A stretch of 34,188 nucleotides of DNA from Nitrospina sp. (GTDB lineage Bacteria; Nitrospinota; Nitrospinia; Nitrospinales; VA-1), in the NCBI GenBank assembly GCA_018664975.1, contig JABIXH010000036.1, positions 1-34,188 on the forward strand, read 5' to 3'. The notes beneath the pieces were generated by a model that was given only the letters and a program-made list of their open reading frames with translations, was not told the origin of the DNA and made no database searches. The translations under genes were made by a program, and so were the position numbers. Shown piece after piece: positions 5,554 through 19,439 of the stretch; positions within the stretch are counted from its first letter, which is position 1, and every line of letters begins with the position of its first letter.

Positions 5554-6639
5554 ATGTCAGAATCTTCTGAATACGATAAGAGCGGTGTTTCCAGTAAAGG
5601 AGCAGAAACAGCACTTTCTGGTTTGCTCAAACATGTTTTACCAACACGAAAATTCAGCGAGCGCTACCCGCTCGCGGCAGACATAGGTTATTTTGCTAAC
5701 GTTGTGGACTTGGGTAACGGCGAGGGTATTGCCTTTGGCACCGATGGGGTGGGAACAAAAGTGATTGTGGCAGAATTACTCGGTCGTTATGACACCATTG
5801 GCATTGACTGCATTGCCATGAACGTTAACGATGTTATTTGCGTTGGGGCTCGCCCTGTCAGCATGGTGGATTATATTGCCTGCTCTCACACCGACCCTGA
5901 AGTGTTTGAACAATTGGGTCAGGGGTTGGCGGAAGGCGCCCAGCAGTCGGGCATCAGTATCTCCGGCGGTGAGATTTCGCAAATAAAGGAAATAATTTCT
6001 GGCATAGATCTCATAGGGGCCTGCATCGGCCATGTTTCTCTGGATAAGGTAAATACGGGTCGCGACATAAAACCTGGAAACCTGATTGTAGGTCTGGCGT
6101 CCAGCGGGGTGCATTCGAATGGTTTGACTTTGGCCCGCAGGGTACTTTTGGGAGACAGTCTGGAAGAGCAGAAATCCCGCATTAACGATTATGAAGAATT
6201 TTTAGGTCAGACTCTGGGCGAAGCCTTGCTCGAACCGACACGCATTTATGTCCAGCCCGTTATGGAAATGCTCGATGCAGAAATAGATCTCAAAGCAATG
6301 GTCCATATTACCAGTGGAGGATTTTGTAACCTGAACCGGGTGCAAAGTGACAATATACGTTTTGTCATTGATACCCTACAGCCCGTTCCTGAAATATTTA
6401 ATCTCATTCAGGATAGAGGGGGAGTGAGCGAGGCCGAAATGTTCGAAGTTTTCAATATGGGAACAGGTTTCTGCCTCATCGTTGAGGGAACGAAACAAGT
6501 CGAAGCCATTTCTGAAATCTGTAAAGAATACGATCTCCCCTGTCAGGTCATTGGACAGGTTGAAGCCTGTCAGGGAAAAGAAGTCACTCTCCCACAAAAG
6601 CAACTCATAGGAAAAGGTAGCGGATTTAAGAGTTCATGA
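5554..6639 (+). CDS. purM: Phosphoribosylformylglycinamidine cyclo-ligase
   Basis: GEGIAFGTDGVGTKVIVAELLGRYDTIGIDCIAMNVNDVICVGARPVSMVDYIA, SGGEISQ, GLASSGVHSNGLTLAR, FNMGTGFCLIV. ATG at 5554 is preferred over the track start at 5470. Confidence 0.95.
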   Translation: MSESSEYDKSGVSSKGAETALSGLLKHVLPTRKFSERYPLAADIGYFANVVDLGNGEGIAFGTDGVGTKVIVAELLGRYDTIGIDCIAMNVNDVICVGARPVSMVDYIACSHTDPEVFEQLGQGLAEGAQQSGISISGGEISQIKEIISGIDLIGACIGHVSLDKVNTGRDIKPGNLIVGLASSGVHSNGLTLARRVLLGDSLEEQKSRINDYEEFLGQTLGEALLEPTRIYVQPVMEMLDAEIDLKAMVHITSGGFCNLNRVQSDNIRFVIDTLQPVPEIFNLIQDRGGVSEAEMFEVFNMGTGFCLIVEGTKQVEAISEICKEYDLPCQVIGQVEACQGKEVTLPQKQLIGKGSGFKSS

Positions 6640-6718
6640 TTGGTGTTATCCCTGCCAGGCAACTCATAGGAAAAAGTAGCGGATTTAAAAGTTCATGATC
6701 GGTGTTATCCCTGCCAGG
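6601..6718. repeat. 59-bp direct tandem duplication (two copies, 3 mismatches) spanning the purM stop codon
   Basis: Copy 1 6601-6659: caactcataggaaaaggtagcggatttaagagttcatgattggtgttatccctgccagg. Copy 2 6660-6718: caactcataggaaaaagtagcggatttaaaagttcatgatcggtgttatccctgccagg. A third partial start, caactcat, follows at 6719. Confidence 0.97.
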
Positions 6719-6846
6719 CAACTCATTGAACCCGGCCACCCTTTGAATATACCGTGACTCCTGCACTTTAAGGTAATCCGAGCCAAATACTTTTTCTGAC
6801 TTCGTGATACATTGAGGCTGAACTTTTATTCCCCCCTTTTTATTTT

Positions 6847-9057
6847 ATGTGTGATTTCGAACTTTCTGAAGCCCTGAAGCAAAGGCTTGATTCTTTTTGC
6901 AACCAGTACGATTGCAGGAGTTTCCATGTTTTCCTGGCGTCGTTTCAAGTTTTGCTGTATCGCTATACCTCGCAAAAAGATCTGGTCACAGGCACCCGAA
7001 CACATCCAGATTCTTCAGGAATTTTGGTTCAATGTATTGCCAGTATTGAAAATTCTTTAACGTTCAAGCAACTTTTAGATGAGGTGTCCAAGCCTCAAGA
7101 ATTTCCGTTGAATGCCGATTCTTCTTCATCTGAAATATTATTGGAAGCACTGGAAACAAAAGAACCCGGACTTGCCCCGCTATATCAGGTTTATCTCAAT
7201 GTAGTGGACGAATCCACATTGTCAGGAGATATGATAATGTCAGAGGATTCAGATTCGTCTGTGCCTCCATTCAAGTTAACCATCGACATTAAAGAAAAAG
7301 ACAACAAACTCATTGGGCAAATAGCATCCAGTATCAAACTATTCGATGCGGGTCTTTTTTCTCGTTTAGCTACTCATTTTGTAAATATAGTGGAAAGTGG
7401 AATCAATAACCCAGACCAAAGTATTTCTGAACTAAAGTTATTATCGAATAAAGAGCATGACAAAATTGTAAATGGATGGAACGATAACAAGAGTAATTTT
7501 CCGGGTGATGGACTCATTCATCACTGGATTGAATCTGTGGCTAAAGAGAATCCGCTGGCCCCTGCCATAGAGCTGGAAGGCAAAACTCTTTCCTATTCTG
7601 CGTTGGATATCCGCGCAAATCAGCTGGCAAATTATTTGAAGACTGTTGGTGTGTATCCAGATTGTTGTGTGGGGATATACATGTCCAGGTCTTTTGAAAG
7701 CATTATTGCTATTCTGGCTATTTTAAAAGCTGGAGGTGCTTACGTGCCCTTGGACCCCGTTTACCCGGTTGAAAGGTTGCAGTCTATTTGGCAGGAAATG
7801 GATTCACCTCTCCTGATATTACATTCGGATTTGAAAAACAGGATTGATGTTGGAGGCAAGAAGACATTGTATCTGGACACAGATTGGGAATGTGTGGAGG
7901 GATTCAGCAAGGAACCTCCGATTGTAGAAACTAAACCAGAAAACCTGTCTTATGTAATTTTTACTTCTGGATCAACAGGAAAACCAAAAGGGATTCTTTT
8001 AACTCATGCGGGGCTTAATAATTTGACCCATACATCGAATCGGTTTTTCGGAGTCCATAAAAAAAGTAGGGTGCTCCAATTTTCATCTTTTGGATTCGAT
8101 GTTGCGGTTTGGGAAATATTTATGGCACTGGCGGCTGGGGGGACCTTATGTCTGGGAACGGGGAAATCCCTGTTCTCTCTTCTAAGTTTACCAAAGACTT
8201 TAAGAGAAGAAAAAATAACCATGGCATTGCTTCCGCCTTCATTGCTGAATGTCATTTCTCCTGAAGGATTGGATTCTTTGGAAACGGTTATTGCGGTTGG
8301 AGAACGATGCACTAATGAAAATGTAAAAAAATGGGCGCCTGGGAGAAAATTCTTTAATGGTTATGGACCTGCAGAAGGGACGGTGACGGTTTCCGCTTAT
8401 CTTACAAATGCAGAGGAACCCCAGCGTCCATTAGGGCCTCCCATTGGTCGGCCATTGGAAAATATTGAAATTTATATTTTAGATTCCGCATTTAACCCAG
8501 TGCCGGTAGGAGTTCCGGGAGAAATGTGTCTTGGCGGCGGATGTATTGCGCGGGGCTATATGAATCAGGAACAAAAAACGAAAGAGAAATTTGTAAAGCA
8601 TCCATTTCGTTCTGGTGCCCGTATCTACCGTACCGGTGACCGGGCCCGATATTTGCCAGATGGCCAGATGGAATTTTTAGGCAGGGTGGACCATCAAGTT
8701 AAGATTCGTGGTTATCGGGTTGAGCCGGGAGAGATTGAAGCGGTGTTGATGGGATGTTCCGGCGTACAGGCTTGTACTGTTTCGGTAAAGAAACATGCGA
8801 ACGGTCAACCTTATCTTGTTGCATATCTAGTTGCGGTAAACCCTGAATCACTTCTTTTGCATAATATAAAGACAATTCTCCAACAAAAACTTCCTTCATA
8901 TATGGTTCCCGGAGTGTTTATGATTTTGAAAAAAATGCCATTGACTCCCAATGGAAAGGTAGACCGATTTGCGTTGCCGGAGCCAAAACCATCGGATTTC
9001 CAAGAGGTTTCGGGAGATATCTCTGGAAATTGGTTGAAAAACTTTTTTAGTCGCTGA
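6847..9057 (+). CDS. NRPS-type protein: C-terminal half of a condensation domain + complete adenylation domain, no carrier domain
   Basis: A-domain core motifs LKAGGAYVPLDP, YVIFTSGSTGKPKGI, FNGYGPAEGT, YRTGDRARYLPDGQMEFLGRVDHQVKIRGYRVEPGEIE, NGKVDR. The N-terminus resembles the second half of a C domain (FLASFQVLLYRYTSQKDLVTGTRT), and no HHxxxDG motif is present. Confidence 0.93.
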   Translation: MCDFELSEALKQRLDSFCNQYDCRSFHVFLASFQVLLYRYTSQKDLVTGTRTHPDSSGILVQCIASIENSLTFKQLLDEVSKPQEFPLNADSSSSEILLEALETKEPGLAPLYQVYLNVVDESTLSGDMIMSEDSDSSVPPFKLTIDIKEKDNKLIGQIASSIKLFDAGLFSRLATHFVNIVESGINNPDQSISELKLLSNKEHDKIVNGWNDNKSNFPGDGLIHHWIESVAKENPLAPAIELEGKTLSYSALDIRANQLANYLKTVGVYPDCCVGIYMSRSFESIIAILAILKAGGAYVPLDPVYPVERLQSIWQEMDSPLLILHSDLKNRIDVGGKKTLYLDTDWECVEGFSKEPPIVETKPENLSYVIFTSGSTGKPKGILLTHAGLNNLTHTSNRFFGVHKKSRVLQFSSFGFDVAVWEIFMALAAGGTLCLGTGKSLFSLLSLPKTLREEKITMALLPPSLLNVISPEGLDSLETVIAVGERCTNENVKKWAPGRKFFNGYGPAEGTVTVSAYLTNAEEPQRPLGPPIGRPLENIEIYILDSAFNPVPVGVPGEMCLGGGCIARGYMNQEQKTKEKFVKHPFRSGARIYRTGDRARYLPDGQMEFLGRVDHQVKIRGYRVEPGEIEAVLMGCSGVQACTVSVKKHANGQPYLVAYLVAVNPESLLLHNIKTILQQKLPSYMVPGVFMILKKMPLTPNGKVDRFALPEPKPSDFQEVSGDISGNWLKNFFSR

Positions 9058-9061
9058 CTCT

Positions 9062-9086
9062 CCCCCTCATTCGCGGGGGTATTTTT
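9062..9086 (+). terminator. Rho-independent terminator-like hairpin
   Basis: CCCCC tcattcgc GGGGG followed by TATTTTT, immediately after the adenylation gene stop. Confidence 0.6.
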
Positions 9087-9164: not shown

Positions 9165-10622
9165 ATGAGTTTTAAGGGCGAGTATCGGTCGGCCAATCTG
9201 GAACAAAGGTTATCGGATAACGAGGTGCTATGCAATTTGTCGCCCAGAAATTGCAAAATGAAAGAGGGTCAAACAGGTTTTTGTGGGGTGAGGGGCAACC
9301 GAAATGGGAGACTGGTCACCTATACCTATGGCAAAGGGGTGCACCTTACAGAAGAGTTGATCGAAACAGAAGCCATCTATCATTTTGCTCCTGGCGCAAA
9401 GATTCTTTCCCTTGGCAATATCGGATGTAATTTAAATTGCCAGTATTGTCAGAACTGGAAAACCTCGCAAGCCAAATTTGTGGAGGATAAGGATGTCCAT
9501 TCTTTTACTCCCGAATCCATTGTTGAAACCGCCTTAAGACATAATATCAAAGTTCTTTCCTGGACCTATAACGACCCGGTAGTCTGGCACGAATTTGTAA
9601 TTGACACCGCTAAACTGGCTAAAGAGGCCGGGATTTATAATTTATACAAGTCGGCCTGTTTCATCACCGATGAAGCGCTAGATGAGTTGCTACCACACAT
9701 AGACATATTTTCTGTTTCCATCAAAGCGATTGATGAAGTTTATTATCGCAAGCTCACTACCGGATGGTTGCAACCGGTTCTGGATGCAACGAAAAAAATT
9801 TATCAAGCGGGAAAACACCTGGAAGTGAGTAACCTGATGATTACAGACATCAGTGATAATGAACAATCAGCTAGAAATATGGCGAGCTGGGTGCTGGAAA
9901 ACCTTGGGCCGGAAGTTCCTCTGCATTTTGTCAGGTTCCATCCAGAATACAGGATGCGGGAAACTGTGAGAACACCCCTGGACCGTTTGGAAAAAGCGCA
10001 GGTCATCGCAAAAGATATGGGTCTTCAGCACGTCTATCTTGGGAATGTAGCAAATACAAAGGCAACAAGTTCCTATTGCAGTTCCTGTGAAGCCAAATTG
10101 ATTCACCGATTTGGTTTGACGGCCCATTACGAAAATTTAAATAATGATGGAAGTTGTGGGAATTGTGGCAACCCATCCCATTTTAAAGCGCTGGATTTAA
10201 AAGAGTCTGCAAAAAACACTTTTGCAGAACTTCCTGCTAAAGATTTAATTCGACATGCTTATGAATGGAGAGGAGATATCACTTCCCTTCATGTTCAAGT
10301 AAAAAATCCTACCGATCAAACGGCAACCATTTATTACAGAGCGCAAAAAAAGAAGAAAGGCCCTTGGACAGAAGTATTAATGGGCCCAGGCGAAAGTTAC
10401 CGCTTTATTCTGGCAAAATGGGACACAAATGAAACAGGCCAGGAAATTGCGTTGCCAGAATTTATAACATCAAACTTGTTTGAGGTTTTTGACAGAGCCC
10501 ATTTCCCCACAATCTCCATTGAAGAGGATGTGTCAGATAACGATAGGACCGCCCTGCCGAAGTTTGAGGGAAAACAAATTCCAGAAAAATTAAAACTTTC
10601 GCTCGCGGAGCCGAACTCATAG
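9165..10622 (+). CDS. AmmeMemoRadiSam-type radical SAM enzyme with long C-terminal extension
   Basis: C-x3-C-x2-C motif in GNIGCNLNCQYCQNW, family-typical CNLSPRNCKMKEGQTGFCGVRGN N-terminus and a CxxC...CxxC pair (SSYCSSCEAKLI...SCGNCGNPSHF), followed by ~150 extra residues. Confidence 0.9.
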   Translation: MSFKGEYRSANLEQRLSDNEVLCNLSPRNCKMKEGQTGFCGVRGNRNGRLVTYTYGKGVHLTEELIETEAIYHFAPGAKILSLGNIGCNLNCQYCQNWKTSQAKFVEDKDVHSFTPESIVETALRHNIKVLSWTYNDPVVWHEFVIDTAKLAKEAGIYNLYKSACFITDEALDELLPHIDIFSVSIKAIDEVYYRKLTTGWLQPVLDATKKIYQAGKHLEVSNLMITDISDNEQSARNMASWVLENLGPEVPLHFVRFHPEYRMRETVRTPLDRLEKAQVIAKDMGLQHVYLGNVANTKATSSYCSSCEAKLIHRFGLTAHYENLNNDGSCGNCGNPSHFKALDLKESAKNTFAELPAKDLIRHAYEWRGDITSLHVQVKNPTDQTATIYYRAQKKKKGPWTEVLMGPGESYRFILAKWDTNETGQEIALPEFITSNLFEVFDRAHFPTISIEEDVSDNDRTALPKFEGKQIPEKLKLSLAEPNS

Positions 10623-11731
10623 AAAACGAAAATAAATTTAATCCCATTACACGGGCATTGCATTTACGCGAAGACGATGCAGGGGCTCACCCAGCGGTCA
10701 CTCCCATCTATCAAGCCAGTGCCTTCGAGGCGGACTCGCCCTACTTTTACAGTCGTAAAAATAACCCTAACGTGGCAGAGCTTGAAAAGGTCCTAAAAAT
10801 CCTGGAAGGAGCCAGACACGCCATTGCGGTAACCTGCGGTATGTCAGCCATATATATGACGCTCGAATTATTACGCTCTGGAGACACCCTGATTGTGAAC
10901 CCATTTATTTATGGGTGCAGTTACCGGTTATTACAACGGATCAGTCAGCGAAGGGGATTTAAGCTGGTTGACCTGGATTTTTCTGAAGAATCAAATATCG
11001 AAAAAATTCCTGCAGAAACAAAAATGGTATTTTTTGAAACCCCTACGAATCCATTTTTAAAAACCATTTCCATTGAGAAAATTTCTCAGCATGTTAAGAA
11101 GAAGAATCCGAATGCTGTAATTGTTGTAGACAATACCTGGGCGACACCTTTATTTCAGCATCCTTTGGAATTAGGGGCTGATGTGTCTCTTCATAGCGGC
11201 ACCAAATATTTTTCGGGTCACAGCGATGTGATGAATGGAGTTTTGCTGACCAATCGGGAAGATTTGGCCGAAGAGTTTCAGGAAACCCGTTTTTATGGCG
11301 GATTGATTCTTTCGCCAGAAAATGCGTGGCTCACACGTAGAAGTTTGCAAACCCTGGAAATTCGATTAAAGCAACAGCAAAATACTTGCGCGGAGATGAG
11401 GGATTTTTTAATCCAACAGTCTCAGGTTGAAAAAGTATACTACCCGGAAATAGACGGTCACCAATTAAAAGGATATGCCGGAATTTTATTTTTTGAATTA
11501 AAAGGCTCTTACCAAAAATTCATGCAGGCTTTGAAAATTTTTAAGACAGGGACTGCCATGGCCTGTGTAACTTCGATGGTGGCTCAACCCTGGTCTGGCA
11601 GTCATGCGTCTATGACCGCAGAGGAAAAGAAACAAATTAATCTAGGTGAAAATCTGGTTCGGTTGTCATTTGGACTGGAAAACCCGGATGATTTAAAAAA
11701 TGACCTGCTGGATGCTTTTCGGGTTTTATAG
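10619..11731 (+). CDS. Cys/Met metabolism PLP-dependent enzyme (cystathionine gamma-synthase/lyase family)
   Basis: PIYQASAFEADSPYFYSRKNNPNVAELEKVLKILEGARHAIAVTCGMSAI; PLP-lysine region SLHSGTKYFSGHSDVMNGVLL. Homologous N-terminal sequence (FNPITRALHLRED) begins upstream of the TTG 10658 track start; ATA 10619 is proposed. Confidence 0.9.
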   Translation: MENENKFNPITRALHLREDDAGAHPAVTPIYQASAFEADSPYFYSRKNNPNVAELEKVLKILEGARHAIAVTCGMSAIYMTLELLRSGDTLIVNPFIYGCSYRLLQRISQRRGFKLVDLDFSEESNIEKIPAETKMVFFETPTNPFLKTISIEKISQHVKKKNPNAVIVVDNTWATPLFQHPLELGADVSLHSGTKYFSGHSDVMNGVLLTNREDLAEEFQETRFYGGLILSPENAWLTRRSLQTLEIRLKQQQNTCAEMRDFLIQQSQVEKVYYPEIDGHQLKGYAGILFFELKGSYQKFMQALKIFKTGTAMACVTSMVAQPWSGSHASMTAEEKKQINLGENLVRLSFGLENPDDLKNDLLDAFRVL

Positions 11732-11770
11732 GAATGATCGAAAGTACAATATTTATAAAAGGCATTTTCA

Positions 11771-12040
11771 ATGTCCAACGTAGAAATCGACAGAGAAAAA
11801 ATTGTTTCAGAATTAATTCACTTTTTTCAAACTGAATTTCCCAACCCTGGCATAGAACTTACCAGGACCTCAGATCTTCCCTCCTTGTTTTTGATAGATT
11901 CGCTTCGAGTTTTAACAACAGTTATTCACCTGGAACAGCAGTTTGGAATTTCTCTGGTTGAATCGGATATCAATGCGGATATATTTCAAAATATTGAAAG
12001 CCTTACGAATTTTGTTTTAACCAAACTAAGTACTACATAA
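11771..12040 (+). CDS. Stand-alone acyl/peptidyl carrier protein (DltC-like)
   Basis: 89 aa with a phosphopantetheine-site-like DSL (FLIDSLRVLTTVIHLEQQFGI), between the PLP enzyme and an MBOAT-like gene. Confidence 0.85.
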   Translation: MSNVEIDREKIVSELIHFFQTEFPNPGIELTRTSDLPSLFLIDSLRVLTTVIHLEQQFGISLVESDINADIFQNIESLTNFVLTKLSTT

Positions 12041-12043
12041 ACC

Positions 12044-13762
12044 ATGTCCTTTTTAGGCCAAAAACAACCTACCTGGGAACAGCAAGAACAAAATGACTCT
12101 CAAGTTAATTGGGGTGTTGTTGTCGCTGTCATCGGCTTGTTATTTATTTATGCCTACCTTTTTACTCATGTGGCCGATTGGGTCAACCTCCCCAGACCGC
12201 AGGAGATGGCCGAGCATTTTGGTATAGAAAATGAAAAAATATTTGATAGGGATAAAAATGTTGATAGCGAAATGTTTATTTCATCTACACGGCAGTTTAA
12301 TAGTGATGATGAACGATTGATCCTTTTTGCAATTATTTCCTGTGCATTTTTGAGTGCTTACTTCCTTCCGCTTCGATTCAAGAAGGGTTCCCTTTTTATT
12401 TGGTTCCTGATCGGAATGGGGGTTTTATATGGAATACGCACCACTACCTGTTTGTTATTTGCCCATTGGATAGTCTATCTGGTTTTACATGTTCCACGCC
12501 CTTCGCTCAAGATTCCTTTTGGTTTTCTGGCAGGAGTATTTGCCTGTATTTCATTTGCGGAAACAGGGGACTTATGGATTAAGAATACTGCCGTTCTGGC
12601 TGGTTGGGGAGTGGGGCTTTGCCTTTTGTTCAATTTGATCGTCTGGCCAGCCATGCGTTTCAATTTAATAGCCAGAGGATTGAGAACATTAGTGATCCAA
12701 TCTGCGTTGATTACTGTTGGTGTAGGCGCGATTTGGCAGGGGATTCAGGGTGAAGCCTGGAAATTACCGCTGGGTATTCTTTTATTTTTCTGGCATTGGG
12801 AACGGCTGATGCTTTATCACGTTGACTATAAAAGTGGACGAATGCCAAAAGAAATTTCTCCAATTGCGTACCTTTCCATTTTCTTGACTCCTGCTTCCCT
12901 GCCCAATTGGAAATGGGGAGTGACTATAGGACAAGGCTACACTTATCTGGAAAACAACTTTTATTGTCAGGATAAAAACCGGCTGGCGATAGAAGGAATT
13001 AAAATATGGGGAATTGCCCTCATATACCTTGTGTTCAATGATGTGATTCGTTATGGACTGATTTCGTTATTTGAATTTTTCAAAATTGAAGTTTATGGGG
13101 CGCGAATCACACGAATGGTATCCCATTATGTTGCCGGAGGGGAAGTAACAACATCCTCCGTGCTGGCAACGACCATTTTAGACCAAATTCGCTGGATGAT
13201 GTTATGGGGAGGGTCGGTACATTTTAAAACAGGAATCTGGAGAGTTTGCGGTTACCAGATGGATCCTTATTTTAATAAGCCCTGGCTCTCTACCAACCTG
13301 GTAACCTACTGGACTCGTTTTACATTTCATTATCGTGAGTTTCTGGTGAGATGTTTTTATTACCCGGTATTTTTTAAATACTTCAAAAATAATATTATTT
13401 TACGAGTAACTTTGGCAACTTTTGCGGCAGTTACGGTAGGCAACTTGGTTTGGGGCCATGTTACGGAGGGAATGTTTTATCATGGTATGTATTTTCACAA
13501 TTTTGCAGAAGTTTTAAAAACCTGGCCCTATTTCGTTCTTCTCACTCTGGGAATTACTGTAACCGAATTGTATTTATTTTGGATGAAATCCACCCGGAAA
13601 CCCTGGACCCTGGATCGGTTTTGGTTTACAGATTTTATCGCAATGTATTGCACCATCCAGTTTTACTGCATTATTCATGTATTTGCTAAGCCCAGTTCAG
13701 GAGCCACGTTGACAGATTGTACAAAATTATTTTTAATCGGATTCGGTATCCGGGTCGATTAG
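12044..13762 (+). CDS. MBOAT-like (DltB-type) membrane O-acyltransferase
   Basis: Multi-TM protein with LLFFWHWERLMLYHVDY, WTRFTFHYREFLVRCFYYPVFF and GNLVWGHVTEGMF (candidate MBOAT His). 3 nt downstream of the carrier gene. Confidence 0.75.
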   Translation: MSFLGQKQPTWEQQEQNDSQVNWGVVVAVIGLLFIYAYLFTHVADWVNLPRPQEMAEHFGIENEKIFDRDKNVDSEMFISSTRQFNSDDERLILFAIISCAFLSAYFLPLRFKKGSLFIWFLIGMGVLYGIRTTTCLLFAHWIVYLVLHVPRPSLKIPFGFLAGVFACISFAETGDLWIKNTAVLAGWGVGLCLLFNLIVWPAMRFNLIARGLRTLVIQSALITVGVGAIWQGIQGEAWKLPLGILLFFWHWERLMLYHVDYKSGRMPKEISPIAYLSIFLTPASLPNWKWGVTIGQGYTYLENNFYCQDKNRLAIEGIKIWGIALIYLVFNDVIRYGLISLFEFFKIEVYGARITRMVSHYVAGGEVTTSSVLATTILDQIRWMMLWGGSVHFKTGIWRVCGYQMDPYFNKPWLSTNLVTYWTRFTFHYREFLVRCFYYPVFFKYFKNNIILRVTLATFAAVTVGNLVWGHVTEGMFYHGMYFHNFAEVLKTWPYFVLLTLGITVTELYLFWMKSTRKPWTLDRFWFTDFIAMYCTIQFYCIIHVFAKPSSGATLTDCTKLFLIGFGIRVD

Positions 13763-13789: not shown

Positions 13790-15499
13790 TTAGAAACCAA
13801 AACCGGTAAGGAATAAACGAAAATTATCGGAGAGTGAGGCTTCCGGGGTAGTGTAGAAAAAAACATGGATCAGGGCAAAGTATTGTAATGTGACGTAAGC
13901 GGAGAGAACATCCCACCCAATGTATTTATCTGGAGTCCAGGGTCTGCGAGAAGTTTTTTTCTTATGCAGGAGCCAGAACTCGCTGACTGTTATTCCCAGC
14001 CCTAATAAAACAAAATAAGGCCATTGTTTTAACGATAACAGAAGGACATTGCTCTCTATATTTGAATAAAACATTGCTTCGGTCATATGACCCCAAATGA
14101 GATTACCAAAGCAAGCCGCCGCCATCGTGGCGGTGAAAATTCGCAAATGGGTGTGGCCTTTAAAAAATTTGAAAAACACAGGGTAATAAAAGGCGCGGAC
14201 CAGAAACTCGCGGTAGTGAAACGTGAACCGCGACCATAAGGTGACCAGATTTGTGGATAGCCAGGGATAATTGAAGTAGGGGGCAATTTTATAACCGCAC
14301 ACACGCCATAAACCCACCTTGAAATGCAATACTCCTCCCCATGAAAAAGTCCATTTCATCAATGCGAGCAAAGTGGTGAGCAAAACTGTGGCGGGTCCTA
14401 AGTTGCTACCAAAAACAAAATCGGATGACATATGTTCAATGCGTCCATAGACCAGAATTCCCTGATCGTTAAAAAAATCGAGCAAACCGGCATGAATCCA
14501 ACTCCCGAATATCAGGTAGCCGAGAGATACCGTCCATAATTGTAATCCGCTCATAACCAACTTATTTTTATCTTCACATAAAAAATTATTCACCGTGTAA
14601 GCGTATCCCTGGCCTATGGTGGCACCCCAGTTCCAGTTGGAAATTTGTCCGGGAGTCAGGAAAACGGAGAGGTAGGTCATCAAGGAAATATTTTTTGGGA
14701 TTTTGCCATCCTGATAATCAATGTGGTACATGAAGAGCCGTTCCCAATGCCAGAAGAATAAAAGAACTCCAAGTGCCAGTTTCCAGGGGCCGGTGAGCCA
14801 TCCTTCGATTAAGGCTCCAATGAAAACGGTAATCAAAGCAGATTGAACAACAACGACCCTTAATATTTTTGCGGCAGGCGAAAAGGCGAGAAGTCGCAGA
14901 ATCCCATAACGATAAATCAATACAGAAATACTTCCTGCCAGAAGAGATTGAATTAGAACGTTGGAACCCAAAAGCATATAAGGATCAAAAGTCCAGAATC
15001 CAAAGAACCCAGGAAGGAAGGCTATCCACAAGCGAAAACTGGAAACAGGGTGGAGAATCAAATAAACCAGAGAATGGGCGCAGAGCAACCCGGATACTCC
15101 TTCCATCCCATACAGAACTCCTATAATGATGAGGGATGAAAAAACCAGGGAGCGCTGTTTGTGCTCAAAAGGAATAAAATAAACCAGAAGGAAAGCAAAG
15201 CCGGCTCCAAGGAATAACACCAGGCGTTCATCATCATTTTTAATAAAAACCCAGGTAAAGGGCACATAGAGACTGCTGTCCACATTGCGATCCACATCAA
15301 AGACATGATCGACGTATAAGCCAAGAGACTCAGATAAATCTTGTGGCATGGGTAGATCAAGCGATTTTGAGGCATAAGTGAACAGGTAAATATAGACAAC
15401 CAAAAATGCAAGTACGGCTAAAACCATTACCGGATTGTGACGGTCGTTTTCCTGTTGCAGTTTTTTGGATACAGGTGCGTCACCTAGAAGTCCTGTCAT
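13790..15499 (-). CDS. MBOAT-like (DltB-type) membrane O-acyltransferase, paralogue of 12044..13762
   Basis: LLFFWHWERLFMYHIDY, WSRFTFHYREFLVRAFYYPVFFKFFK and GNLIWGHMTEAMF, strongly matching the + strand copy. Start overlaps the carrier stop (ATGA). Confidence 0.75.
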   Translation of the reverse strand: MTGLLGDAPVSKKLQQENDRHNPVMVLAVLAFLVVYIYLFTYASKSLDLPMPQDLSESLGLYVDHVFDVDRNVDSSLYVPFTWVFIKNDDERLVLFLGAGFAFLLVYFIPFEHKQRSLVFSSLIIIGVLYGMEGVSGLLCAHSLVYLILHPVSSFRLWIAFLPGFFGFWTFDPYMLLGSNVLIQSLLAGSISVLIYRYGILRLLAFSPAAKILRVVVVQSALITVFIGALIEGWLTGPWKLALGVLLFFWHWERLFMYHIDYQDGKIPKNISLMTYLSVFLTPGQISNWNWGATIGQGYAYTVNNFLCEDKNKLVMSGLQLWTVSLGYLIFGSWIHAGLLDFFNDQGILVYGRIEHMSSDFVFGSNLGPATVLLTTLLALMKWTFSWGGVLHFKVGLWRVCGYKIAPYFNYPWLSTNLVTLWSRFTFHYREFLVRAFYYPVFFKFFKGHTHLRIFTATMAAACFGNLIWGHMTEAMFYSNIESNVLLLSLKQWPYFVLLGLGITVSEFWLLHKKKTSRRPWTPDKYIGWDVLSAYVTLQYFALIHVFFYTTPEASLSDNFRLFLTGFGF

Positions 15500-15759
15500 G
15501 ATCTGTCTATGCTATTCATTTGGTTGGCGACATATTGGGAAAGGCTTTCTATACTGCGGAAGGTAACAGCGTTGATATCTGCGCGGGATATTAAGATACC
15601 AAATTGTTCTTCAAGAAACAATGTGGTGTTTACAATGCCAAAAGAATCAACAAACCAGTCATCCAAAAGATTGGTGTCATCGGTCAAAGAAGCACCTGGG
15701 TTGGGGAATTCTTCCTCGAAGAAACTTTTTAACTGGGATTTAATATCAGTTCTCTGCAT
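15496..15759 (-). CDS. Stand-alone carrier protein (DltC-like), paralogue of 11771..12040
   Basis: FFEEEFPNPGASLTDDTNLLDDWFVDSFGIVNTTLFLEEQFGILISRADINAVTFRSIESLSQYV, collinear with the + strand carrier (FFQTEFPNPGIELT...DSLRVLTTVIHLEQQFGISLVESDINADIFQNIESLTNFV). Confidence 0.88.
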   Translation of the reverse strand: MQRTDIKSQLKSFFEEEFPNPGASLTDDTNLLDDWFVDSFGIVNTTLFLEEQFGILISRADINAVTFRSIESLSQYVANQMNSIDRS

Positions 15760-17269
15760 TTTTTGGCCGCATTATTTTTTCGCGCAAGGTTTTATAATCC
15801 ACTTTTCCATTCTTTGTTGTGGGAAACCGATCAATCTGGTGGAAGCTGTGGGGAATCATATACTGGGGGAGAATGCCAGACAACAAGCTTCTAAAAGGGG
15901 GTTGGGATTCTAGTAGACCCGCAGAGTAAAAAGCCATAATCCGTTTTCGTGAAAAATCATAAAGCACGCAACTTTGCAAAACAAACTCGAATTGGTTGAG
16001 GGCATTTTCTATTTCACCGGCTTCAATGCGATAGCCATTATGTTTGAACTGGTTGTCTTTTCTACCGCTCATATAGATGAGTCCATCTTTGGAGGATTGG
16101 TAACCTAAATCTCCTGTCTTATAAATAATTTCATCTTGCTTTCCAGATTCAGGATTGAAAATAAATACATCACATGTGGTTTGGGGGTCTTTCCAATATC
16201 CCAATGCTACCCCGGGTCCGGCGATACAAATTTCGGCAATTTCATCCGGGGAGGATACCGGCCTTTCCTCTTCATCCAAAAACAAAACCCGATGGTTAGC
16301 GCAGGGTTTTCCTAGAGGTACTTCTTTCAGGTTCGCTATATCTTCTCCAAAGATCCAATAGATGGCATCCACAGTTATTTCAGTGGGGCCATATAAATTA
16401 GAAAGCAGGGCAGAAGGAAAGCTGGATTTAAGAAGCTTCAAAGTATTTAGCGGCATAGCTTCCCCTGCAAACAAAATTTTCTTCAAGCAACTCAACTCGT
16501 ACTCTTCATGTAGTTTTAGGGAAACCAGATTACCCAGTAGTGAAGGAACGAAAAATATAAAATTAATCTTGTGGGTAGAAACATAAGTACCAAAATCGGC
16601 CGGGAACCTGAGCACATCTTTAGAAAGCAGGTGAAGGGTACCCCCCTTGGCGAAGGTGAGGTAAAGATCGAGAACCGAGTTGTCAAAAAATAGTGGGGCT
16701 TGATTTCCGATAATTTCCGCTTCGGTAATTGCATAGGTATCCACAGCCCAGTCGATGTAGTCTATCACTGAAGCGTTGCTGATGGTCACACCCTTTGGGG
16801 TCCCTGTTGTTCCAGAGGTGAAAATAATATAAAGAGGGTCGTCAGGTTTTCTCTCTGACAATTCGTTCAGCACCTGTTTTTCAATTTGGGGTAGATCTTC
16901 GTAGGTGCTCGAAAATATTTTTCCTGCCAGATTAAATTTCCCGGCTTTATGCTCAATTACTCGATCACTACCCAGTGCCTCCAAAATTTTATTCCTTCGG
17001 GGGAGAGGTGTTTCGATATCCAGAGGAACATAAATATTTCCACTCATTTGGATGGCGAGCAGAGCGATGACCGCATCAATAGATTTAGGCAGTCCCACGC
17101 ATATGGGCTGATTAGTTATTTGAAATTCTGTATTTATCCAATAAGCTAGGGTGAGGGAGTTTTTCCACAATTGGTTGAATGTAATTCCCTGTCCTTCATC
17201 AACAATTGCGGTTTTTTCAGGGAACTTGTTTTTGGTGCTTTGAAGGTATTCTATCGCCAGATTTTGCAT
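15746..17269 (-). CDS. DltA-like amino-acid adenylating (AMP-binding) enzyme
   Basis: LYIIFTSGTTGTPKGVTISNAS, NQAPLFFDNSVLDLYLTFAKGGTLHLL (DltA-like), NLYGPTEITVDAI, YKTGDLGY, GRKDNQFKHNGYRIEAGEIE, NGKVDYKTL. 14-bp overlap with the carrier gene. Confidence 0.92.
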   Translation of the reverse strand: MQNLAIEYLQSTKNKFPEKTAIVDEGQGITFNQLWKNSLTLAYWINTEFQITNQPICVGLPKSIDAVIALLAIQMSGNIYVPLDIETPLPRRNKILEALGSDRVIEHKAGKFNLAGKIFSSTYEDLPQIEKQVLNELSERKPDDPLYIIFTSGTTGTPKGVTISNASVIDYIDWAVDTYAITEAEIIGNQAPLFFDNSVLDLYLTFAKGGTLHLLSKDVLRFPADFGTYVSTHKINFIFFVPSLLGNLVSLKLHEEYELSCLKKILFAGEAMPLNTLKLLKSSFPSALLSNLYGPTEITVDAIYWIFGEDIANLKEVPLGKPCANHRVLFLDEEERPVSSPDEIAEICIAGPGVALGYWKDPQTTCDVFIFNPESGKQDEIIYKTGDLGYQSSKDGLIYMSGRKDNQFKHNGYRIEAGEIENALNQFEFVLQSCVLYDFSRKRIMAFYSAGLLESQPPFRSLLSGILPQYMIPHSFHQIDRFPTTKNGKVDYKTLREKIMRPKNAEN

Positions 17270-17313
17270 TTATTAGTTTTTCAAAATTGTTCTTTCATCG
17301 GGACAAAGTTATC

Positions 17314-18759
17314 ATGGAACCGATTATTAAAAACAGCAAATGGAAGTTGGGATGGATCGCCGGAATTCTTTTGGCGGGTCTCTTTGCTTTTAAGCTGTTC
17401 TCCATAATTACAGGTACTATACCCAAGCGGCCTAATTTACTTTTACTCACTCTGGATACACTGCGCCCCGATCATTTGAGTGTATATGGTTATCAACGGG
17501 CAACCAGCCCTTCTCTTTCCAGTTTAACGAAAGATAGTTTTGTTTTTGAAAATGCTTTCACGGTGGCGACAAATTCGGGTCCATCTCATGCGACCCTGTT
17601 GACAGGATTATACCCTGCCCAGCATGGGTTGGTGGATAATGGTCAAAGAATTAAGGTGCCCACAATCTCTAAAACCTTGAGTCAAATAGACTATGACACC
17701 GCAGGGTTTGTTGGCTATTACGCATTGGGAGAGGAGTCGGGACTGGATAAAGGTTTTGAGAATTTTGAATATCATCCCATAGCAAGTCATGACCATGACG
17801 AAGAAAAAGATGACCTGAAAGGATTTAATGCGGCGATTAAATGGATTAAATCCTGGAATAAAACTCCTACAAACTCTCGTTCTCCATTTTTTGCCTGGGT
17901 GCACGTTCAAAATATCCACGAAAGTTATGATCCTCCCTCTCCCTATAACTCCATGTTCGGGAAAATTACCAGCCCCCAGGCACTGGAGGGGTTTGAAGGA
18001 GAATTTGATTTACGTTGTGCCAACGATCTGGCCAAAGCCTGGCGGGCAGGGATATTACCCGCTCATTTCAAGAAGGAGGCGATGGCTTTGTATGACGGGG
18101 AAATACGTTTGGTAGATGACCAGCTCGGCCGGATTTTTGCAATGCTAAAATCTATGGAAGTTTATGATGATACGGTGATCGTTATTGCTTCCGATCATGG
18201 AGAAATTTTATTTGAACTATATGAAAACGAATTTTACAAGAGGGGTCCCGGTCACTCCGCTCGCTATACGGATGCCTCCATTCATGTACCTTTGATTATA
18301 AAGCCAGCAAAAATCAATGAATTCGATAAAAAACATCACATAAAACAAATGGTATCCACCATTGACCTGGTTCCAACACTTCTGCAATTACTGGGACTAC
18401 CGATTCCCTCTGATTTACCGGGTGTATCTTTGGTGAACGCAATGCGTCAACCAAGTGCCTCCCCAATCAATGAGAAAGTATATTTTCATGAAAAACCTCA
18501 TGGGGTGGAATACATAGGACTTCGCACCGAGCAATGGAAGTTTGTGACGAAAATTAAAGAGGGTGTCGAAAGCTCCCTGCTCATTGACTTGGTAAATGAT
18601 CCGGATGAAAACTTCAATTCCCAATCCATTGCCAAGGTTCGAGAGTTTGAGGCCTCTTTAAAAGCATGGAAAAAAAATATGGGGTCAATTTATAATAGAA
18701 GTGAAATAACCGATGAAATGAGGCAGGTGTTGAAAGACGGAGGGTATCTGCGCGAATGA
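17314..18759 (+). CDS. Membrane-anchored sulfatase-family (alkaline phosphatase superfamily) hydrolase/transferase
   Basis: N-terminal TM segment, RPNLLLLTLDTLRPDHLSVYGY, TNSGPSHATLLTGLYPAQHG, VIVIASDHGE, VPLIIKPA. ATG 17314 is preferred over the track start. Confidence 0.88.
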   Translation: MEPIIKNSKWKLGWIAGILLAGLFAFKLFSIITGTIPKRPNLLLLTLDTLRPDHLSVYGYQRATSPSLSSLTKDSFVFENAFTVATNSGPSHATLLTGLYPAQHGLVDNGQRIKVPTISKTLSQIDYDTAGFVGYYALGEESGLDKGFENFEYHPIASHDHDEEKDDLKGFNAAIKWIKSWNKTPTNSRSPFFAWVHVQNIHESYDPPSPYNSMFGKITSPQALEGFEGEFDLRCANDLAKAWRAGILPAHFKKEAMALYDGEIRLVDDQLGRIFAMLKSMEVYDDTVIVIASDHGEILFELYENEFYKRGPGHSARYTDASIHVPLIIKPAKINEFDKKHHIKQMVSTIDLVPTLLQLLGLPIPSDLPGVSLVNAMRQPSASPINEKVYFHEKPHGVEYIGLRTEQWKFVTKIKEGVESSLLIDLVNDPDENFNSQSIAKVREFEASLKAWKKNMGSIYNRSEITDEMRQVLKDGGYLRE

Positions 18760-19439
18760 AATATATGCAACCATCCAGGGTTTTGCTTGTTTTGCTCCTG
18801 ATGGATGCCGGAGTGGGTGCTCTGCATCTTTTATTTTTGTCCGACCCGGAATGGGGCACAATGTTTAACATGGCCTATGAAGAAAATTTCCCGACCTGGT
18901 ATTCCAGTTTTCTATTTTTGCTAGGTGCCGGGGCAGGGTGGTTTTGCTATATCGTGGAAAATAACTCGAATCGGAAAAAACCGTGGGGGTGGCTAGTGGT
19001 GGCTTTAGGTATGCTGGGATTAGCCATGGATGAGATTTTGCAGATTCATGAAAGTCTCATTGATCTGATCATGAATGGAAGTGCAGGAGACAACCTGCGC
19101 CAGTATTTTGGTGTCACACAGGATACAGATTCGCTTTTATGGACAGTGGTCTTCGCCCCGGTTATCATTCTTGCGGGAACAGCACTAATCATGTTCTATT
19201 ATTCTCGCCTACATAAAAACCTGGCCCTTTTTCGATTTTCTATACTCCCTTCTGGTTTATTGGTTTTGTCTGCAGGGTTGGAATTTATGGAAGCCAAAAC
19301 ATTAAATTCATTTTCTCAAGATTCCCTGGCCCGATACTGGCAATTTATATTTATAGAAGAAATGTTAGAATTTGTTGCCGCATCCCTTTTTATATGGATT
19401 CATTATAAATATGCCATGTGGCAGAAAATTGAATCTTAA
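18756..19439 (+). CDS. Polytopic membrane protein of unknown function
   Basis: Several hydrophobic segments with acidic motifs LAMDEILQIHE and EEMLEF. ATGA overlap with the sulfatase-family gene. Confidence 0.75.
   Translation: MKYMQPSRVLLVLLLMDAGVGALHLLFLSDPEWGTMFNMAYEENFPTWYSSFLFLLGAGAGWFCYIVENNSNRKKPWGWLVVALGMLGLAMDEILQIHESLIDLIMNGSAGDNLRQYFGVTQDTDSLLWTVVFAPVIILAGTALIMFYYSRLHKNLALFRFSILPSGLLVLSAGLEFMEAKTLNSFSQDSLARYWQFIFIEEMLEFVAASLFIWIHYKYAMWQKIES

Follow-up and report, generated by a model that had tools for sequence, protein, structure and literature searches.

A Dlt-like gene cassette of Nitrospinota that includes radical SAM and cystathionine-gamma-synthase-family genes and may make its own amino-acid substrate

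What are a radical SAM gene and a gene for a pyridoxal-phosphate (PLP) enzyme doing among genes that otherwise resemble a dlt operon? The question is raised by a 34,188-nucleotide stretch of Nitrospina sp. (assembly GCA_018664975.1, contig JABIXH010000036.1), hereafter the window, which is the whole stretch that we analyzed. On its + strand lie, in this order, an adenylation gene (A1), a radical SAM gene (rSAM), a cystathionine-gamma-synthase (CGS)-family PLP gene, a carrier gene (CP1), and an MBOAT-like gene (MB1), which together we call cassette 1. We put the chances at about even that cassette 1 aminoacylates the cell envelope in a Dlt-like manner and brings along the enzymes that make its substrate. 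Acting together, the CGS-family and radical SAM enzymes would form or modify an amino acid outside the standard set, probably a neutral and apolar one. A1 would adenylate this amino acid and load it onto the phosphopantetheine arm of CP1, and MB1 would move it from CP1 to an acceptor on the outer membrane face. The initial annotation had proposed tailored aminoacylation, and this part is borne out to the extent that such a role agrees with the altered yet conserved motifs in the two enzymes and with the near-invariant A1 code. Its suggestion that the substrate is sulfur-containing or unsaturated gained no support, as the evidence points in neither direction.

Cassette 1 is conserved beyond the window genome. 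The window corresponds to contig C308 in an incomplete metagenome-assembled genome (MAG) of Nitrospinaceae (G000; 78% complete, 321 contigs). We surveyed linkage in 78 Nitrospinota genomes, comprising G000 and 77 others, and a scan of genome contigs found three close relatives. Nearly all compared genomes are MAGs, and many contigs stop inside cassettes. Genes of the MB1 family were present in 13 of the 78 genomes, and cassette 1 recurred in six of the 77 others. It was complete and in order in three (G041, G063, and G009) and cut by contig ends in the remaining three: A1 lies off the contig in G065, the MB gene is truncated in G064, and in G040 A1 and rSAM stand at the end of a short contig. 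The initial annotation had made its proposal depend on conserved linkage of the radical SAM and PLP genes with the carrier and MBOAT genes in relatives, and we found this linkage in five further genomes, with A1 and rSAM together in a sixth. G009 belongs to another family, and its cassette proteins are 42%–72% identical. Its cassette is flanked by Sel1-repeat, cNMP/PAS, and PMT_2 genes, the other cassettes by purM and DUF255 genes. Because the order is kept in other genomes, including this distant one, and despite differing flanks, chance adjacency can be ruled out. A short remnant of an MB C-terminus lies between purM and the DUF255 gene in G062 (contig C30, L044:2360-2575) and is likely the deletion scar of a lost cassette. 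In the window, a part of the purM 3' end is repeated immediately downstream (6630-6730; repeat GTTCATGATYGGTGTTATCCCTGCCAGGCAACTCAT).

Comparison of two cassettes suggests which genes belong most closely together. Between G064 and G063, A1 is 89%, rSAM 95%, and CGS 94% identical, while the carrier and MB proteins are only 46% and 44% identical, and the G064 MB fragment is placed beside G009, both with long branches (91/88). Probably, then, the carrier and MBOAT genes were swapped together, and the A1-rSAM-CGS trio stayed. A chimeric G064 contig may be another source of the divergent pair, and is conceivable because the MB gene sits at the contig end. Judged by these identities, the trio is bound more tightly together than to the carrier and MBOAT, since the carrier-MB pair differs as a unit while the trio remains 89%–95% identical.

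The spacing of the genes bears on how the enzymes might work with the carrier. The packing of adenylation, radical SAM, CGS-family, carrier, and MBOAT genes on the + strand, as first annotated, was confirmed by coordinates, families, and the predicted MB1 fold, and the gaps of 39 bp (CGS to carrier) and 3 bp (carrier to MBOAT) proved exact. The overlap described between CGS and rSAM probably amounts to 4 bp, with the start placed at an ATA in the absence of a conserved ATG, GTG, or TTG. Between A1 and rSAM is a 107-bp gap containing a terminator-like hairpin (9062-9079, + strand; CCCCC-loop-GGGGG followed by TATTTTT, a consensus match only) and a TTGACA-like element. The element is kept in five genomes; similar hairpins are present in G040 and G041, and none was obvious in G063, G064, or G009. 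Because of the hairpin and the element, A1 may be transcribed separately from rSAM onward, and the idea of a single five-gene operon including A1 was not upheld.

This layout would suit an alternative in which tailoring occurs on the carrier, with A1 loading an ordinary amino acid, the radical SAM enzyme, the PLP enzyme, or both modifying the aminoacyl-CP1, and MB1 transferring the product. The tight packing of rSAM, CGS, CP1, and MB1, with A1 possibly on its own transcript, is consistent with such a sequence of steps, and the C-terminal domain that only cassette copies of the radical SAM enzyme have could serve for contact with a partner protein. However, the contrast between a trio at 89%–95% identity and a carrier-MB pair at 44%–46% speaks against an enzyme closely fitted to CP1. 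We regard on-carrier tailoring as unlikely, although it is the best of the alternatives.

CP1 and MB1 supply the Dlt-like half of the cassette. CP1 (11771-12040, + strand) is a stand-alone carrier protein whose PP-binding match is weak and falls under the Pfam cut-off, but the D-S-L motif is present. The predicted phosphopantetheine serine (11900-11902) is part of a D-S pair kept in all compared CP1 and CP2 copies, CP2 being the carrier of a second cassette. MB1 (12044-13762, + strand) is a divergent membrane protein with conserved H429 (13328-13330) and H472 (13457-13459). It matched no Pfam or NCBIfam model. An AlphaFold2 model built from 12 relatives (pLDDT 77.5, pTM 0.80) had among its 12 best PDB matches 6bug (E = 1.1e-4), which we take to be a DltB structure, DltB 8jem (E = 2.8e-4), PORCN, HHAT, and LPCAT3. 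All of these named top matches are MBOATs, with moderate E-values, and lower matches were not significant. On this predicted structure MB1 has an MBOAT (DltB-like) fold, so that the MBOAT label given at first was right although invisible to Pfam. The cassette-1 MBOAT of G009 (contig C49, L041:9923-11641) has N and other changes at the predicted catalytic WGH motif. A plasmid search for MB1 relatives returned none.

Known envelope systems share parts of this arrangement. The dlt operon (DltA-DltC-DltB-DltD) carries out D-alanylation of teichoic acids, and we know of no teichoic acids in the lineage of the window genome. Like dlt, cassette 1 combines a stand-alone adenylation protein, a carrier, and an MBOAT, whose predicted structure matches DltB; unlike dlt, it has no DltD/SGNH partner, its A1 is NRPS (nonribosomal peptide synthetase)-like with half a Condensation domain, and it adds radical SAM and CGS-type enzymes. 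AlmEFG of Vibrio cholerae puts glycine on lipid A, and its transferase AlmG is not an MBOAT. It resembles the cassette in using a DltA-like ligase and a carrier to decorate a Gram-negative envelope, and differs in its transferase and in having no radical SAM or PLP enzyme. Known Dlt-like systems take their amino acids, for example D-Ala or Gly, from the general pool. The Alm proteins have been discussed previously (PMC3783018), and our literature search found no paper linking an MBOAT, carrier, and adenylation set with a radical SAM enzyme.

The NRPS-like character of A1 raises the possibility of a different kind of product. A1 (6847-9057, + strand) consists of the C-terminal half of a Condensation domain (PF00668, positions 230-455 only) and an adenylation domain (PF00501, 246 bits), with no fused carrier. 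It is nearer to NRPS adenylation domains than to DltA, and on this basis one could propose that A1, with its partial Condensation domain, and CP1 are what is left of an NRPS module that makes a small diffusible metabolite, with MB1 acylating or releasing the product. The lack of an envelope acceptor gene in the cassette would fit. However, the Condensation remnant has lost the N-lobe, which bears the catalytic motif; a second module, a thioesterase, and an exporter are all absent from the cassette; and the adjacent paralogous cassette 2 is Dlt-like and has no tailoring genes. We therefore consider a diffusible product improbable. As an AMP-binding protein that carries no fused carrier, A1 is a stand-alone amino-acid adenylation protein, though an NRPS-like one. 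Ungapped alignment to GrsA (1AMU) gives the pocket code DVWLIVGVT. Across six genomes the code is DVW(L/M)(I/V)VGVT, identical in five and conservatively changed in G009. Interpreting such codes past the alignment itself draws on general knowledge, and this code probably indicates a neutral, apolar substrate.

The CGS-family enzyme is found in a form peculiar to the cassette. The gene (10619-11731, + strand; PF01053, 333 bits) keeps the fold-type-I PLP residues (Lys, Asp, Tyr/Arg, and Arg), and its predicted Schiff-base lysine (HSGTK, 11204-11206) is shared by the cassette copies and references. The neighboring pocket is altered. In all cassette copies, a pocket strand of the ESLGGVES type is replaced by T(A/G)MACVTS and MTH by GSH (11549-11602), at residues conserved in 21–24 of 24 references, so the SLGGVES-type strand expected of PF01053 reads (A/G)MACVTS. 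Further changes are F to W in DNTFATP and the absence of an eight-residue segment. No NCBIfam equivalog was reached among the models shown, the best score being 265 bits against cut-offs of 440–730. In a wider scan of 387 genomes, cassette orthologs scored 733–792 bits and all other proteins at most 271, and in a tree the orthologs form one clade on a long branch. BesB and CalE6 are CGS-fold enzymes that work in natural-product amino-acid tailoring, and CalE6 is among the solved relatives of the cassette enzyme. The setting is thus alike, but the cassette enzyme is about 30%–35% identical to the references and is set apart by its long branch, changed pocket, and eight-residue deletion. We also note its unusual start (10615-10625). 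In five genomes from two genera (G000, G041, G063, G064, and G065), the ATAG or ATAA containing the rSAM stop includes an ATA, and no conserved ATG, GTG, or TTG precedes the residues NPITRALH in these genomes. These residues show synonymous variation and align with the ATG-started G009 copy, so a conserved non-canonical ATA start is possible.

The initial annotation had allowed that this gene might be the genome's ordinary methionine-biosynthesis enzyme, which we examined by a PF01053 profile search of the 78 genomes. Full-length PF01053 proteins above the cut-off occurred in the cassette genomes and in G022, G070, G071, and G001, and longer PF01053 proteins in G003, G014, G015, and G025. The remaining Nitrospinaceae had none of full length, and among them is G047, which is 97% complete in a single contig. 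The alternative homocysteine enzyme PF01837 (HcyBio) was also absent, most Nitrospinaceae having neither. Neither homocysteine nor methionine synthesis is mentioned in the paper on the Nitrospina gracilis genome (PMC3578206). Since almost every relative searched lacks a full-length PF01053 gene, we rule out that the CGS gene is the ordinary methionine enzyme of the lineage.

The changed pocket could also reflect a racemase that supplies a D-amino acid to Dlt-like machinery, with the radical SAM enzyme having a separate or epimerase-like role. The superfamily includes a PLP Ala/Glu racemase (NF041088, a weak match), Dlt systems use D-alanine, and a conserved Ser and Glu near the PLP pocket are lost in the cassette enzyme. 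However, the NF041088 score of 209 against a cut-off of 629 is no better than that of lyase models, and the radical SAM partner is left unexplained, which makes a racemase improbable.

Like its PLP neighbor, the radical SAM enzyme departs from its family outside the core motif. The gene (9165-10622, + strand) belongs to TIGR04337 (AmmeMemoSam_rS; core residues 14-337, 319 bits against a cut-off of 220), and the 4Fe-4S motif CxxxCxxC (C88, C92, and C95; 9426-9449) is invariant in every cassette copy. In comparison with 24 other TIGR04337 proteins, the five cassette copies agree on a different residue at 15 of the 70 highly conserved columns. The replacements are E137 to D (TYNEP to TYNDP), V162/N164/G165 to K/A/C (SNGY to KSAC), D185 to S (DLK to SIK), a KKP stretch to TEA, and C26 to S, so that family-wide motifs outside the cluster loop are not retained. 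The enzyme is also distinguished from the AmmeMemoRadiSam family by an additional C-terminal domain and by the absence of Memo and AMMECR1 neighbors, which in the searched genomes lie on other contigs or far off. The extension (10197-10619, ~141 aa, a predicted beta-sandwich at low confidence) was confined to cassette copies among the 387 genomes, and a search for a named family or solved relative found none. In the predicted structure, of low confidence overall (mean pLDDT 51), the core resembles PFL-activase; we judged matches of the extension to enzymes with carbohydrate-binding modules untrustworthy. Literature searches by AmmeMemoRadiSam terms found no description of this enzyme's function. 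The window genome has a second, cassette-free copy on contig C300 that is 36% identical to the cassette enzyme; it lies directly after SufBD-, SufS-, and NifU-type genes, i.e., in a SUF locus (L109:54-4211). In G065 (contig C173, L034:12913-14214), rSAM shifts from one frame to another close to its 3' end, through sequencing error or decay.

That ordinary methionine or sulfur-metabolism and AmmeMemoRadiSam genes lie among loading genes by accident is very improbable: it has in its favor only family names and the CGS-type gene being the sole strong PF01053 gene in the incomplete window genome, and is contradicted by order conserved across families, PF01053-poor relatives, the second rSAM copy, and the changed motifs.

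A neighboring cassette shows what such a set looks like without the two enzymes. Cassette 2 lies on the - strand, tail to tail with cassette 1, and consists of the DltA-like adenylation protein A2 (15746-17269), the carrier CP2 (15496-15759, PF00550), and the MBOAT-like paralog MB2 (13790-15499), with neither rSAM nor CGS. It is present, whole or cut by contig ends, in eight other genomes. The A2 pocket code, D-N-L at 235/236/239 and L-V-D at 322/330/331 in seven genomes, differs from that of A1, and as each code is conserved the two proteins probably load different substrates. Outside Nitrospinota, among the matches listed, two weak MBOAT-type matches (G174 and G268) have adenylation and carrier neighbors with no rSAM or CGS gene nearby, and the G174 set includes an SGNH lipase gene. 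Adenylation-carrier-MBOAT sets therefore appear to be of a general Dlt-like kind, the rSAM-CGS addition being special here. Alongside cassette 2 (region 13790-19439) are a divergently placed, divergent sulfatase-fold gene (17206-18759), in which SGPSH replaces the CxPSR-type motif, and a small gene. This five-gene block is kept in several Nitrospinota genomes.

Several observations weigh against the view that cassette 1 makes its own substrate and attaches it to the envelope. A1 and rSAM are separated by what may be a terminator and a promoter, no acceptor or DltD-like gene lies within cassette 1, and the A1 pocket code has no confident match to any known substrate. The G009 MBOAT carries N in place of the predicted catalytic H472, and the C-terminus of the G065 radical SAM enzyme is split between frames. 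The parts of the proposal also differ in their basis. Comparative evidence points to the making and loading of a special substrate, on which both enzymes would act either free or carrier-bound, while for transfer by MB1 to an envelope acceptor the evidence is the predicted fold. A fuller proposal we advance only tentatively, as falling clearly short of an even chance: the radical SAM and PLP enzymes, dedicated to this task, would build an amino acid not known before, which the stand-alone carrier would receive and the MBOAT would pass to the cell envelope of Nitrospinota.

What is new here is a Dlt-like set accompanied by a radical SAM enzyme and a PLP enzyme that depart from conserved motifs and are restricted to the cassette. 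With five genes, the cassette is compact enough for its chemistry to be tested directly in a laboratory host. The main marine nitrite oxidizers belong to Nitrospinota, and if the proposal is true, cassette 1 would open a way to new amino-acid chemistry at the bacterial surface in that phylum.

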